Source of the DNA: Labilibaculum antarcticum
GTDB taxonomy: Bacteria; Bacteroidota; Bacteroidia; Bacteroidales; Marinifilaceae
Length of the DNA: 64,000 nucleotides
Direction: 5' to 3'
Assembly: GCF_002356295.1 (NCBI RefSeq)
Contig: NZ_AP018042.1
Coordinates: 3,814,361 to 3,878,360 of the forward strand
Shown one piece after another: positions 8,143 to 45,240 of this stretch (positions within the stretch are counted from its first letter, which is position 1; every line of letters begins with the position of its first letter). The notes below the pieces were generated by a model, which saw only the letters and a program-made list of their open reading frames with translations, made no database searches and was not told the DNA's origin. The translations under genes and the position numbers were made by a program.

Positions 8143-8928
8143 TTAGGTTGTGATAGTTCCTGTGAAAACATGTGTTGCAGGCCCTACCAACCAAATGTTT
8201 TCGATTTGTGTGTCGTTTGTTTTTCTGAAATGTACTTCCAGATGGCCGCCTTTAGTTTTAATCTTAAATTGGTTTCTGCCAGTTTTAAAACTGGCACTTA
8301 TGGCCGATGCAACAACTCCTGTTCCGCAAGAATATGTTTCATCTTCAACACCTCGTTCGTAGGTGCTTACTGTAATGTCTTGATCCTGAAATGAGACAAA
8401 GTTTACATTTGTTCCTTCCTCCGCAAATCTATTATTGTATCGAATCTTTTTCCCTTCGGTAAATGTGTCGAAATTATCATGTTTGGATATGAATCGAACA
8501 AAATGAGGTGAGCCTGTATTTAAAAAATAAAAATCGTCACCCAATTCAACATCTAAAACATCAATCATTTTAAGACTAACCTGAACTCCATTCTCAGTCT
8601 TAATGATTTTTGCTTCATGTTCGCCGTCAACAGCAATGAATTTGGCAGTTTCCGAAATAAGTCCTAGGTGATAGGCAAAAGCAACAATGCATCGTCCTCC
8701 ATTTCCGCACATACTTCCTTCTTTTCCATCTGAATTGTAGTATCTCATCCGAAAGTCGAATCCTGAGGCATTATCCAGTAACATTAGTCCATCTCCACCA
8801 ACACCAAATCTTCTGTCGCAAAGTTTTTTGATTAATGTAAAGTTATTAGCATCAATTATGTTATTACGATTATCTATTAAAACAAAATCGTTCCCAGTTC
8901 CCTGATATTTTGAAAATTCAACTTTCAT
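8143..8928 (-). CDS. dapF: Diaminopimelate epimerase
   Basis: This enzyme converts LL- to meso-diaminopimelate for lysine and peptidoglycan synthesis, without a cofactor. Both catalytic cysteine motifs are visible: MCGNGGRC (first Cys) and YSCGTGVVAS (second Cys). The N-terminal KYQGTGNDFVLID is typical. The 261 residues match the family. It starts at ATG 8928 and is followed closely by the sensor kinase gene on the same strand. Confidence 0.95.
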   Translation of the reverse strand: MKVEFSKYQGTGNDFVLIDNRNNIIDANNFTLIKKLCDRRFGVGGDGLMLLDNASGFDFRMRYYNSDGKEGSMCGNGGRCIVAFAYHLGLISETAKFIAVDGEHEAKIIKTENGVQVSLKMIDVLDVELGDDFYFLNTGSPHFVRFISKHDNFDTFTEGKKIRYNNRFAEEGTNVNFVSFQDQDITVSTYERGVEDETYSCGTGVVASAISASFKTGRNQFKIKTKGGHLEVHFRKTNDTQIENIWLVGPATHVFTGTITT

Positions 8929-10757: not shown

Positions 10758-11618
10758 ATGAGACAATTAAAGATAACCAAATCAATTACCAATCGTGAAA
10801 GTGCTTCTTTAGACAAGTATTTACAGGAAATTGGTAAAGAAGATCTTATTACGGTAGAGGAAGAAGTTGAATTGGCGCAGCGAATAAAAAAAGGCGACCA
10901 AAAAGCTTTGGAAAAATTAACCCGAGCCAACTTACGCTTTGTTGTTTCTGTTGCAAAACAGTATCAAAATCAAGGTTTAAGTCTACCTGATCTTATTAAT
11001 GAGGGTAATTTAGGTCTGATTAAAGCAGCTGAAAAGTTTGATGAGACACGAGGATTCAAATTCATCTCGTATGCCGTTTGGTGGATCCGTCAATCTATTC
11101 TACAAGCTTTAGCAGAACAATCAAGAATTGTTCGTTTGCCATTGAATCAAGTTGGTTCTTTGAATAAAATTAACAAAGCTTTTTCTAAATTCGAACAAGA
11201 GCACGAAAGAAAGCCTTCTCCTGAGGAGTTAGCTGAATCTTTAGAGTTACCTGCTGATAAAGTAGCAGATACGCTTCGTGTTTCTGGTCGTCACATTTCT
11301 GTTGATGCTCCATTTGTTGATGGTGAGGATAACAGTTTATTGGATGTATTGGTGAATGATGATTCTCCAATTGCAGACAGAAATCTTTTGAATGAATCTC
11401 TTACAAAAGAAATTGATCGTGCACTAGCTACTCTTACTGAAAGAGAGAGTGACATTATCAAACTTTTCTTTGGTATCGGTATTCAGGAAATGACTTTGGA
11501 AGAAATTGGCGAGAAATTTGGGTTAACACGTGAGCGTGTTCGCCAGATTAAAGAAAAAGCGATTCGTCGTTTACGTCACACATCCAGAAGTAAATTATTG
11601 AAAACTTATTTGGGATAG
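10758..11618 (+). CDS. rpoD: RNA polymerase primary sigma factor (short Bacteroidetes type)
   Basis: This 286-residue sigma-70 factor lacks the long region 1.1 found in proteobacterial RpoD, as is usual for the Bacteroidota housekeeping sigma. Visible parts are region 1.2 ([20 protein letters not shown]), region 2 ([16 protein letters not shown] and the core-binding [15 protein letters not shown]), region 3, and region 4 with the helix-turn-helix [20 protein letters not shown]. It recognises the TAnnTTTG promoters seen elsewhere in this window. The start at ATG 10758 has an AGGG ribosome site just upstream. A nearby ATG at 10745 is out of frame. A bidirectional terminator separates it from uvrB. 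Confidence 0.95.
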
Positions 11619-38243: not shown

Positions 38244-38969
38244 ATGGGGAAGTTTTCACTTTACGATTTATTAGGGCTGCTACTGCCAGGAGTTCTCTTT
38301 TTGTTTTTTAGCGGTGTGATAAGTCATATTTATGGCTTGCTACCAGCATTTCTCGGAGTACTTAATTGGCAAGTAAATATTGGCATTACACTCTGCTTTG
38401 CCCTTATTATTGGAGCTACGCTTTACGCGACAAATTTCCATTTAGTAAAAAAATCATGGTACAACCGGCTTTTGGGAATGTACAAACATGTTACTGTTCT
38501 TTATTTAAAAATGAAATTTCTTCATCAATTGATGAATGAAACTTTGAATATAAAATCAAAAGAATGGTACGGAAAGAATATCTTTTTTAATAAAGCTGAT
38601 TTCGATATTCTTACGGCAGAAAAACAGAAAGAAACGGAAGATTTGCAGGATGAGTTTTACGACCGTATGTATTACGAATTGGAGTATCATGGTAAAATAG
38701 AACATGCAAAAACGGTCCAAAGCTTTCATTTTTTCTTTCGGCAAACCGCCTTGGCCTGCATCATACTTCTCTTACTGAATATTGTATTATTTGCCTTGTA
38801 TTTTATTTTCAAACCGCATACACGTAAATCTGATATATTCGCCACCCTTTTGCTTGATGGATTATTGTTCTCTATTCTTTTTGTTTCGGCACGACTTGCC
38901 CAATGGTATCGCAAACGAATGGTAATGAAAATGTATTGGGCTTATTTTACTCACCTAAAACAAATTTAG
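38244..38969 (+). CDS. csx27: Csx27-like membrane accessory protein of the type VI-B locus
   Basis: This 241-residue protein has four predicted helices: near residues 8-33 (LLGLLLPGVLFLFFSGVI), 43-63, 168-190 (ALACIILLLLNIVLFALYFIF) and 198-217. A charged cytosolic part of about 100 residues lies between helices 2 and 3. Its stop is 4 bases from the cas13b start, so the two are one operon. VI-B1 systems encode Csx27, a multi-helix membrane protein of about this size next to Cas13b (established), and the repeat here matches the Csx27-bearing Bergeyella type. Direct sequence similarity to Csx27 cannot be checked here, so the symbol rests on context. The N-terminal FSLYDLLGLLLPG motif also occurs in other defence-linked membrane proteins. 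Confidence 0.6.
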   Translation: MGKFSLYDLLGLLLPGVLFLFFSGVISHIYGLLPAFLGVLNWQVNIGITLCFALIIGATLYATNFHLVKKSWYNRLLGMYKHVTVLYLKMKFLHQLMNETLNIKSKEWYGKNIFFNKADFDILTAEKQKETEDLQDEFYDRMYYELEYHGKIEHAKTVQSFHFFFRQTALACIILLLLNIVLFALYFIFKPHTRKSDIFATLLLDGLLFSILFVSARLAQWYRKRMVMKMYWAYFTHLKQI

Positions 38970-42330: not shown

Positions 42331-42403
42331 TAGAAAATACTTCCGTTTTTTGCGGGGCGAAAAACGGTTTATCCTTTGAAAATAAGGCATTTATAACAGG
42401 CAG
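42331..42403 (+). promoter_or_regulatory. Cas13b-array spacer / presumed leader
   Basis: Seventy-three bases between the cas13b stop and the first repeat. CCGTTTTT at 42343 pairs with AAAAACGG at 42360, making a hairpin. TA-N3-TTTG at 42370-42378 is a near-match to a promoter -7 box. The intact repeats lie on this side, so it is the likely leader end. Confidence 0.5.
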
Positions 42404-43617
42404 GTTGTAATTGCTCTTATTTTGAAGGGTATACACAACGCTATATATCTGTATGTTGCAAAACATGTTGTTGTAATTGCTCTTATTTTGAAGGGTATAC
42501 ACAACACTAACTACACACAAAATAATTGCTAGAAAGTTGTAATTGCTCTTATTTTGGAGGGTATACACAACGTTGAATACATATACTGACTAAGTATTTT
42601 AGTTGTAATTGTCTTTATTTTGAAGGGTATACACAACTAAGTTGGGTTATTGTGTTGTTTAAGTTCTGTTGTAAATGCTCTTATTTTGAAGGGTATACAC
42701 AACATGAAATAAGTTATTGTCACTTGAATTCCAGTTGTAATTGCTCTTATTTTGAAGAGTATGCACAACTTATCAACGGGTTTGCCCGATAAACCTTTTG
42801 TTGTACTTGCTCTTATTTTGAAGGGTACACACAACTTTGATTTTTGCATAAAAGAAATAAAATCTGGTGTAACTGCTCTTATTTTGAAGGGTATACACAA
42901 CACGTATAGCAAAGAGTTTTGTGACAAACATGTTGTAATTGCTTTTATTTAGAAGGGTATACACAACTTGTAGGTTAATACTCCATCAATGAAGAAAGTT
43001 GTAGTTGCTCTTATTTTGAAGGGTATACACATTGTAATTTTTTAAATCTCTAATCATATCGGTTGTAATTGCTCTTATTTTGAAGGGTATAAACAACATT
43101 CATTGCCCCGTGCTTTAGCTCGGGGTTTTGTGAAAGTTTTGATTTTGAAGGGATACACAACAATTTTCAATGCTCATAATTTTAATTTTGAGTTGTACTT
43201 GCTCTTATTTAGAAGGGTATACACAACAGTTAATGATGCGTTCAAAGAGATTTTATTGTTGTAACTGCTCTTATTTTGAAGGGTATACACAACATCCATT
43301 GCCCCGTGCTTTAGCTCGGGGTTTTGTGAAAGTTTTGATTTTGAAGAGTATGCACAACATCCATTGCCCCGTGCTTTAGCTCGGGGTTTTGTGAAGGTTT
43401 TGATTTTAAAGGGTATGCACAACTCTTTCCCATGATTTGAAATTTCACATTGTTGCAATTGCTTTTATTTTGAAGGGTATACACAACATCCATTGCCCCG
43501 TGCTTTAGCTCGGGGTTTTGTGAGAGTTTTTATTTTGAAGGGTATACACAATATCCATTGCCCCGTGCTTTAGCTCGGGGTTTTGTGAATATTTCCATTT
43601 CGAAGGGTACACACAAC
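42404..43617 (+). CRISPR. Type VI-B CRISPR array, 19 repeats of 36 nt and 18 spacers
   Basis: The consensus repeat starts GTTGTAATTGCTCTTATTTT and ends GTATACACAAC. It closely matches the known Bergeyella zoohelcum Cas13b repeat (GTTGGAACTGCTCTC...TCACAAC), with terminal GTTGT/ACAAC pairing and an internal CTCTT/AAGGG stem. Repeat starts: 42404, 42470, 42536, 42602, 42668, 42734, 42800, 42866, 42932, 42998, 43062, 43127, 43192, 43258, 43323, 43388, 43452, 43517, 43582. Spacers are mostly 30 nt (28-30). Repeats at 43127, 43323, 43388, 43517 and 43582 have a diverged 5' half, and each follows the same hairpin spacer. The degenerate end is distal to cas13b. Transcription on + is assumed from the repeat orientation. 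Confidence 0.97.
43098..43581 (+). repeat. Five identical hairpin spacers interspersed with ordinary spacers
   Basis: Spacers at 43098-43126, 43294-43322, 43359-43387, 43488-43516 and 43553-43581 all read CATTGCCCCGTGCTTTAGCT followed by CGGGGT. CCCCG/CGGGG and GC/GC pair to form a stem-loop. The first copy differs by one base at its left end (ATT for ATC). Each is 29 nt and followed by a repeat that begins TTTGTGA instead of GTTGTAA. Confidence 0.9.
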
Positions 43618-43663
43618 AAATATGGCATGTTAGGGAATTTTGCAGCAGATATTTCTAAAAGGT

Positions 43664-43688
43664 CAGGCTCTCAGCCTGGTTTTTTTTC
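43664..43688 (+). terminator. Rho-independent terminator after the CRISPR array
   Basis: CAGGCT-CTC-AGCCTG followed by eight T, 46 bases after the last repeat, on the array's sense strand. Confidence 0.85.
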
Positions 43689-43698
43689 TTGTCCAATG

Positions 43699-44177
43699 AA
43701 AAAAATGACTTCTATGAGTTTCATATGAGCCCACCAAGCAAAAGAAAGTCTTGCATGAGTTTCAGATGAGCCCACCAAGTAAAAGAAAGTCTCGCATGAG
43801 TTTCAGATGAGTTCACCAAGCATAAGAAAGTCTCGCATGAGTTTCATATGAGCCCACCAAGCAAAAGAAAGTCTTGCATGAGTTTCAGATAAGCTCACCA
43901 AGCAAAAGAAAGTCTCGCATGAGTTTCAGATGAGCCCACCAAGTAAAAGAAAGTCTCGCATGAGTTTCAGATAAGCTCACCAAGCAAAAGAAAGTCTCGC
44001 ATGAGTTTCAGATGAGCCCACCAAGTAAAAGAAAGTCTCGCATGAGTTTCAGATGAGCCCACCAAGTAAAAGAAAGTCTCGCATGAGTTTCAGATAAGCT
44101 CACCAAGCAAAAGAAAGTCTTGCATGAGTTTCATATGAGCCCACCAATCAAAAGAAAGTCTCGCATGAGTTTCAGAT
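43699..44177. repeat. 41-bp tandem repeat, about 11.7 copies
   Basis: The exact period is 41 bases with no spacer. Anchoring on GCATGAG gives positions 43712 (variant), 43753, 43794, 43835, 43876, 43917, 43958, 43999, 44040, 44081, 44122 and 44163. Units differ at a few fixed places, giving alternating types (GATGAGCCCACCAAGT, GATAAGCTCACCAAGC, TATGAGCCCACCAAGC). The period is not a multiple of three, so it is not a coding repeat. It ends at a CCCGTT-C-AACGGG hairpin (44180-44192). Confidence 0.95.
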
Positions 44178-44505: not shown

Positions 44506-45240
44506 ATGAAAAAAGTACATGCAAATGCAATTACCAATGAAATTGCAGAGATCTGCAAAGGAATAATAGAATTAAGTAAAAGATACCCAATTGAGCTTGA
44601 TGACTATTTCATCTTTATATTTCAAAAATTATCCGGAAAATCGGTCGAATTAGTCGGAAAGATTAATGCAGGCTGGCTGAATAGTGAACTAAAGGAAAAG
44701 GATGATGCCCGTGATTTGGATGTGCGCGCCATTTTTTATGAAGTAAAGGCCAAATGCATGCGCCGCCCAAGTGCCGATCAGGAAAAAGCTTTGCGGATAA
44801 AAGAAGTTTTAGATCGCTACGGGATGAAAATTACCGAAGATTCTTACACCATAGAAAGTGCCGGGGTACGGGCCATGTTGAGTGATTTAAATGCTCCTGA
44901 ACTGGAAGACTGTGTTGCTTCTAATGCCGATTTTAAAATTTTACTGGATAATGCAGAGCAATCGATGGCTGAATTTGATGTTTCGGCATCGAAACTGATC
45001 GAAGACAAAAACGAACGGGAAAATGCCAAATCGGCATCGGTCGTTGGCCAGGAACTGAAGGGTATTATTAATAATGAGTTGTTGATTTATTTAGCAGCGA
45101 TGTCAAAGGCAAATCCAACGAAATACAAGCCTTATGCCGATGTGGTAAATACATTGATTGAAGACAGCAATAACAAGGTTCGCGACCGTTTGGCAGCTTT
45201 TAAGCGTAAAAAGGAAAAGATAAATCCTGAATTGAATTAG
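44506..45240 (+). CDS. DUF6261-like cytoplasmic protein
   Basis: This 244-residue protein starts MKKVHANAITNEIAE and is largely helical and charged. It matches in style the Bacteroidetes-specific DUF6261 family, where the middle holds paired helices and the C-terminus is rich in Lys and Arg. I recognise it from memory only. The function is unknown. The start ATG 44506 is chosen over 44359 because it fits the soluble protein. It sits directly beyond the tandem repeat, but nothing shows that it belongs to the CRISPR system. Confidence 0.6.
   Translation: MKKVHANAITNEIAEICKGIIELSKRYPIELDDYFIFIFQKLSGKSVELVGKINAGWLNSELKEKDDARDLDVRAIFYEVKAKCMRRPSADQEKALRIKEVLDRYGMKITEDSYTIESAGVRAMLSDLNAPELEDCVASNADFKILLDNAEQSMAEFDVSASKLIEDKNERENAKSASVVGQELKGIINNELLIYLAAMSKANPTKYKPYADVVNTLIEDSNNKVRDRLAAFKRKKEKINPELN

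Follow-up and report, generated by a model that had tools for sequence, protein, structure and literature searches.

The oldest entry in the Cas13b-associated CRISPR array of Labilibaculum antarcticum looks like a copy of a hairpin repeat that lies scattered over the bacterium's own chromosome, and as an array entry it is probably useless. In the window, by which I mean the whole stretch of 64,000 nucleotides that was analysed, this palindrome occupies five of the 18 spacers of the array, each time followed by a diverged repeat. I consider it likely that a spacer derived from the host's own REP-like DNA, together with the decayed terminal repeat behind it, has been multiplied by recombination between the repeats of the array.

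The steps of this proposal would be as follows. A REP-like palindrome of the host, in the form found downstream of an OmpR-type response-regulator gene, would have been captured as a spacer before three Labilibaculum species split, and the terminal repeat behind it would then have decayed. Recombination among the direct repeats of the array would have multiplied the unit, which is present once in L. euxinus, twice in Labilibaculum sp. K2S and five times in the window, and would have left chimeric repeats, with a 5' part from the decayed terminal repeat and a 3' part close to the ordinary repeats. With a hairpin as spacer and repeats that are not predicted to fold into the normal handle, the units would probably give few or no guides and sit in the array as inert inserts or trailer.

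The array and its palindromic units

The profile matches of cas13b (NF038190) and csx27 (NF040557) place the locus in type VI-B1 (Table 1). It has the genes of such systems, their 36-nt GTTG...CAAC repeats, their 30-nt spacers and a leader/first-repeat hairpin, and most of the 14 ordinary units combine a 36-nt handle-folding repeat with a spacer of about 30 nt. However, type VI-B1 arrays differ from this one, in which 5 of 18 spacers are a single host-like palindrome accompanied by diverged repeats. The leader contains an inverted near-copy of the repeat, as it does in K2S (locus L030, genome G034) and in L. euxinus A4 (L031, genome G027), whose leaders are identical to each other and show a similar leader/first-repeat fold (11322-11433, z -5.0). 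This arrangement is described for type VI-B in PMC13187072, with tests in a VI-B2 system and predictions for several subtypes of type VI. As the leader lies on the cas13b side and repeats 1-2 are perfect, with changes present in later repeats, the far (trailer) end appears to be the old end of the array.

Table 1. Features of the type VI-B1 locus, in window positions
Feature	Position	Strand	Basis or remark
csx27 (type VI-B1 accessory protein)	38244..38969	+	NF040557 156 bits vs cut-off 65; PADLOC Csx27
cas13b effector, 1118 aa	38974..42330	+	NF038190 851 bits vs cut-off 150
Intrinsic-terminator-like hairpin 3' of cas13b	42343..42367	+	pattern scan
Leader/first-repeat hairpin, marker of leader end	42370..42431	+	RNA fold of 42331-42439: -37.8 kcal/mol, z -7.0
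CRISPR array, 19 repeats of 36 nt (one of 35), 18 spacers	42404..43617	+	unit-by-unit reading
Hairpin unit 1	43098..43161	+	palindromic spacer 43098-43126, diverged repeat 43127-43161
Hairpin unit 2	43294..43358	+	spacer 43294-43322, diverged repeat 43323-43358
Hairpin unit 3, tandem with unit 2	43359..43423	+	spacer 43359-43387, diverged repeat 43388-43423
Hairpin unit 4	43488..43552	+	spacer 43488-43516, diverged repeat 43517-43552
Hairpin unit 5, terminal; position common to two other species	43553..43617	+	spacer 43553-43581, diverged repeat 43582-43617
Trailer, intrinsic terminator at its end (stem 43657-43685)	43618..43685	+	alignable in L030, L031 and orphan copy L006
41-bp tandem repeat, 11.3 copies, after trailer	43714..44177	+	

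Tandem tracts with a 41-bp period follow the CRISPR terminator not only in the window but also in L030, L031 and the orphan copy L006 described below (1660-1860), with a sequence specific to each species. A gene for a DUF6261 protein lies 3' of the array (44506-45237), and by eye L030 and L031 have a similar sequence in the corresponding position.

The original prediction held that five of 18 spacers carry one palindromic core, that the repeats behind them are diverged in the 5' half and kept in the 3' half, and that these repeats vary more than the spacer copies do. All of this is confirmed when the 19 repeats and 18 spacers are read singly. Spacers 11, 14, 15, 17 and 18 are one palindrome of 29 nt each, whose first 28 nt differ at a single position (ATT in copy 1, ATC in the others); copies 2-3 and copies 4-5 form tandem pairs. 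In the repeats at 43127, 43323, 43388, 43517 and 43582, between 7 and 9 of the first 15 bases match the consensus, whereas the last 21 bases show 19-20 matches in four of the five and equal the consensus apart from one deleted base in the fifth (43127). Across the five copies, 12 of 37 columns vary in the diverged repeat, the deletion counted, against 1 of 28 in the spacer (Fisher p 0.004, a guide value only, as the copies are related). A 21-nt core of the palindrome is found with up to two mismatches at 7 places in the 5.72-Mb genome, 5 of them in the array, and its backward control at none; chance is excluded as the source of the five copies.

Two rare substitutions in the diverged repeat at 43323 recur as a pair in a single ordinary repeat, that at 42734, as would be expected from an exchange between repeats by recombination or conversion. 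Gene conversion of a spacer-repeat unit, one of the processes originally suggested, is supported to this extent. The block 43258-43451 matches the block 43452-43645 at 157 of 194 positions; a simple duplication of a three-unit block is not supported, as the third element agrees at only 7 of 28.

The unit at the array end of related species

Matches to cas13b are present in 5 of 56 genomes of the family. Three are close (84-100% identity, full length, all Labilibaculum), while the other two are distant (28%, G022) or weak (G030), so that a close full-length cas13b is found in 3 of the 9 genomes of the genus, that of the window included. In both close relatives, K2S and L. euxinus, the palindromic unit stands last in the array (2 of 10 and 1 of 6 spacers, respectively), and in all three genomes it lies directly before an alignable trailer and terminator. 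Apart from the palindrome, spacers of the window have fewer than 11 bases in common with any spacer of K2S or L. euxinus. As the unit holds the last position in three species while the other spacers differ, it is ancestral and was multiplied in the window array. The comparison of the array in relatives, proposed with the original prediction and carried out here on two other Labilibaculum species, thus agrees with the claim that the five spacers do not reflect ordinary acquisition, and five independent acquisitions can be rejected. An assembly error is unlikely, since the window genome is a single contig and two other assemblies carry the unit at the array end.

The two copies in K2S share changes of their own, so this duplication looks separate from that in the window. 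The history of the copies is not a clean tree either, as window copy 1 and the K2S copies have ATT in the palindrome and the remaining copies ATC. Spacer 6 of L030 and spacer 2 of L031 overlap by 24 nt with a shift of 6 nt, as if one target had been sampled twice; this sequence has no exact match in the viral contigs.

Cas1 was not found in any of the three cas13b genomes (G000, that of the window, G027 and G034). It is present in 5 of the 6 other genomes of the genus (one of the five 63% complete), none of which has a full-length cas13b. Given its absence from the cas13b genomes, array change by recombination is easier to explain than new acquisition, and for the same reason the capture of the palindrome is unexplained today; acquisition must have occurred in the past of this lineage.

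CRISPR arrays are known in which the oldest unit is common to relatives, the last repeat is decayed and one spacer has extra copies. SpacerPlacer is reportedly a study that bears on such trailer-end repeat decay and spacer duplication. The window array has all three traits, but differs from the usual trailer-end decay in that its decayed unit is nevertheless present in five copies, which are interleaved with other spacers and match repeats of the host.

A decayed orphan copy of the 3' end of the array lies 87 kb from it (L006, ~1460-1860; G000:C1 ~3944840-3945240). It consists, in this order, of a degenerate repeat, the palindrome (28 of 28 positions), a degenerate repeat, the trailer, the terminator and repeats of the 41-bp type, with 83% identity to the array end over ~180 nt. 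The window genome has no second cas13b match, its only one being that in the window. Outside this genome, long matches to the orphan itself were found only in the arrays of L. euxinus and K2S. The open reading frame behind the orphan (147 aa) has matches in 8 of 8 other genomes of the genus and received no name from any search; it is preceded in one relative by a similar tandem tract (L155) and in two by one or two units (L152, L153). Recombination between two tandem-repeat tracts would explain the origin of the orphan copy. Its neighbours are a repeated element with 5 further long copies in the genome (84-89%) and PtuA/PtuB-like genes for an ATPase and an HNH protein (L136).

When one copy per lineage is compared (window copy 5, K2S copy 2, L. 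euxinus and the orphan), the palindrome varies in 3 of 28 columns, the diverged repeat in 19 of 37 and the trailer in 25 of 63 (p 0.0006 and 0.006 for the two contrasts with the palindrome, indicative only, as the sequences are related). Of the variable positions in the palindrome, one is in the flank, one in the loop and one at an unpaired mismatch, and none of them alters a stem pair. Plain decay fits badly with a palindrome that is better conserved than its surroundings, and this conservation could come from selection on the hairpin or from homogenisation within the REP family.

Mainly for this reason I retain an alternative, although I think it unlikely: selection keeps a structure at the 3' end of the pre-crRNA, as a decay cap or unprocessed trailer, and extra copies were favoured. 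Put more specifically, and with a similarly low probability, a REP hairpin of the host would have become, by domestication, a fixed element at the 3' end of Cas13b arrays in Labilibaculum, a selected unprocessed tail that was multiplied for altered stability or processing of the pre-crRNA. The unchanged stem pairs agree with this, as do the amplification of the unit in two species and the intact 28 of 28 positions in an orphan whose matched stretch has fallen to 83% identity. However, the orphan has kept the palindrome with no cas13b nearby, homogenisation of the REP family could yield equal conservation, the terminator pattern was called only at 42343-42367 and 43657-43685 and not at the palindrome, and the core is absent from the Cas13b loci fetched from outside the genus.

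Chromosomal relatives of the palindrome

A search for the core outside the array had been suggested as a check on the origin of the unit, and it found relatives. With up to two mismatches, the 21-nt core occurs at two such places in the same genome, the orphan copy and a site downstream of a response-regulator gene (L007). With up to three mismatches, the 20-nt palindrome is found at 16 distinct sites, of which 11 lie outside the array, and its backward control at none. The core, with up to two mismatches, is present in 8 of the 9 genomes of the genus, the window genome included and some without cas13b (backward control 0), and 31-nt exact matches lie outside any array in G032, G033 and G034.

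In 8 of 9 loci checked, the core lies 3' of one OmpR-type response-regulator gene and is sense to it (L007, L037, L038, L052, L081 and L035 in Labilibaculum, L072 and L074 in another genus of the family); beside the core in the ninth, L073, this gene was not seen. The eight genomes (G000, G027, G029, G032, G033, G034, G049 and G050, from two genera) have 1 to 4 palindromes per site, with an exact match to the array form in three of the eight, and in G049 and G050, which belong to the other genus, the palindrome has a form beginning with AATTG. Since the site is common to two genera, it is more likely the source of the array copy than its product. A BLAST of the whole array against its own genome listed 47 matches at E up to 10; those outside the array with E<0.1 number 6, every one of them in a hairpin unit, and a clear self match is thus lacking for the remaining spacers. 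A single exact 25-nt search of the viral contigs with the palindrome gave no match, a result too narrow to exclude a viral source.

The window element resembles the REP/RAYT palindromes in being small and scattered, and a related type, though not this exact one, is clustered round a Y1 transposase gene. It differs from them in that the exact form is low in copy number (the two outside places with up to two mismatches), stands in the spacer position of an array and lacks an end tag. REP super-families with a GTAG or CGTC tag are named in PMC3733652; by eye neither tag is present here, the flanks of the window copies reading ATYCATT and TTTTGTGA. There are 6 Y1_Tnp matches in the genome, and at L161 (G000:C1 ~1772440) a Y1 transposase gene lies amid 11 sequences built on GCTTTAGC/GCTAAAGC within 3.3 kb, which is likely a REP-RAYT locus.

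These transposase matches, and the cluster at L161, raise the possibility that a RAYT-type Y1 transposase inserted the palindrome into the array, replacing a spacer and the 5' half of a repeat. A further point in favour lies at the border between palindrome and repeat, where likeness to the response-regulator REP extends past the end of the spacer. The first 11 bases after the palindrome in the window copies match the REP flank of L007 and L081 at 9-10 positions and that of L038 at 8-9, against only 6 of 11 for the CRISPR repeat; the fraction of window positions with 10 of 11 matches is 7e-5 to 2.5e-4, the array's own copies included. In K2S the scores are 7-8 for the flank and 4 for the repeat, and about equal scores are seen in L. 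euxinus (8-9 and 8) and the orphan (7-8 and 8). On the other hand, most palindromes around L161 have the TTGTCCCCTGCTTTAGCTGGGGCAA form, a related type that differs from the array palindrome, and the units have a normal size (63-65 nt) and start right after a repeat in nine of nine copies, so I hold such an insertion to be quite improbable.

The border also bears on the preferred reading, capture followed by recombination, as flank likeness past the spacer border is not predicted by plain capture of 29-30 nt and counts against it. Within the REP flank at the response regulator stands TTTGTGAA or TTTGTAA, a sequence similar to the beginning of the repeat. Over its full length the diverged repeat beats shuffles as repeat-like in all nine copies that follow a palindrome; its first 15 bases do so clearly only in L. 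euxinus (p 0.02), with p 0.06-0.5 in the window, K2S and the orphan. The likeness may stem either from capture of ~41 nt, from later conversion with a chromosomal copy, or from a coincidence helped by the shared TTGT.

Spread of a REP-like hairpin inside the array, as originally suggested, is thus upheld as regards the REP-like origin in a genus-wide family and the duplication of a spacer-repeat unit from the trailer end, and not as regards movement of the hairpin by itself.

Predicted folding and guide function

The 14 ordinary repeats have predicted fold energies of -4.7 to -10.9 kcal/mol and the five diverged repeats of -3.0 to -4.5 kcal/mol, a gap that is narrow at its edge, where the ordinary repeat 42602 stands at -4.7. 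Compared with shuffles, the diverged repeats reach z +0.1 to -0.7, while six of eight ordinary-repeat variants tested reach -2.3 to -3.7; weak folds among the ordinary repeats are those of 42602 and 43452 (z -0.7 and -1.3). The outer stem TTGTG/CACAA is retained in a shifted register in the predicted fold of four of the five diverged repeats, and one of the two diverged repeats of K2S still folds above shuffles (z -2.6). The palindromic spacers themselves fold at -13.4 kcal/mol and the other 13 spacers at 0 to -5.6, the most stable of the latter being spacer 6 (42770-42799) with a short palindrome, CGGGTTTGCCCG. As the predicted handle fold is mostly lost in the five diverged repeats and the spacers fold on themselves, the palindromic units are predicted to be poor guides; probably they give few or no working guides and are inert inserts or trailer.

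Regulatory crRNA-like guides are known in other CRISPR types. The original prediction had named a selected crRNA-like element as one possibility, and the palindrome is conserved, adjoins degenerate repeats and had no viral match in the one exact search. Nevertheless, a guide that pairs with transcripts of its own locus is very improbable here, and this part of the prediction is not supported as regards a guide, although the hairpin may be under selection for some other reason: the spacer is predicted to fold on itself next to a weak handle, and, the exact complement on the opposite strand of the array set aside, the best complementarity to the palindrome among the stretches listed in the window is 18 of 28 positions, inside the array, against 16-19 in shuffles. 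In the csx27 region it is 15 of 28, and nothing in the window rises above shuffles. Beyond the window, guide targets in the own genome were sought with a near-exact pattern and the BLAST of the array.

The unit is also no general feature of type VI-B systems. The NF038190 profile has a match in 5 of 392 genomes of the phylum (3 over the cut-off), in 22 of 393 of the order (15 over the cut-off) and in 4 of 395 of the order of G261 (3 over the cut-off), these sets overlapping and each being drawn from a larger group. Among 171 loci fetched, the pattern CATTGCCCCGTGCTTYAGCYCGGGG is confined to Labilibaculum (52 loci), and the core pattern is absent from the Cas13b loci from outside the genus; of the 19 cas13b regions other than the window's own, 10 had their arrays read and 9 were only scanned by script.

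One might still regard repeat, hairpin and 3' repeat half together as a long direct repeat of the kind that gives long type VI-B crRNAs. The review PMC8209922 describes a composite repeat, 88 nt long, in which a 5' and a 3' fragment of the repeat flank an intervening stretch, and the window likewise has a hairpin before a kept 3' half. In the type VI-B array of L121 (G612), two identical 86-nt long repeats (8365-8450 and 8679-8764) have a hairpin insert of ~50 nt in the repeat loop with the handle stems kept (fold z -5.2). What the window unit has in common with them is a hairpin within repeat-derived sequence and more than one copy per array. However, L121 keeps its handle around the loop insert, while in the window the 5' half is altered, the handle is weak and the span would be 101 nt instead of 88. 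The unit thus does not consist of repeat fragments round an insert with the handle kept, and I give this interpretation scarcely any probability.

The palindromic unit is unusual but built from known processes, and it is not categorically new. At the level of titles and abstract openings, none of the papers listed describes the multiplication of a REP palindrome within a CRISPR array, the subscription literature being mostly outside the scope of this search. The array offers a traceable case of a CRISPR system that holds and multiplies a piece of its own host's repetitive DNA, and this in a system directed against RNA, in which spacers taken from the host could do harm. Such a spacer could be tolerated by its sense orientation to the host gene, by folding on itself or by the decay of its handle. 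The case also suggests that array change by recombination is still possible in a genome without detectable Cas1. Should selection act on the hairpin, it would represent an array element of a new kind, and if it has indeed been domesticated at the 3' end, a unit of the array would have lost its role as memory and gained a structural one.
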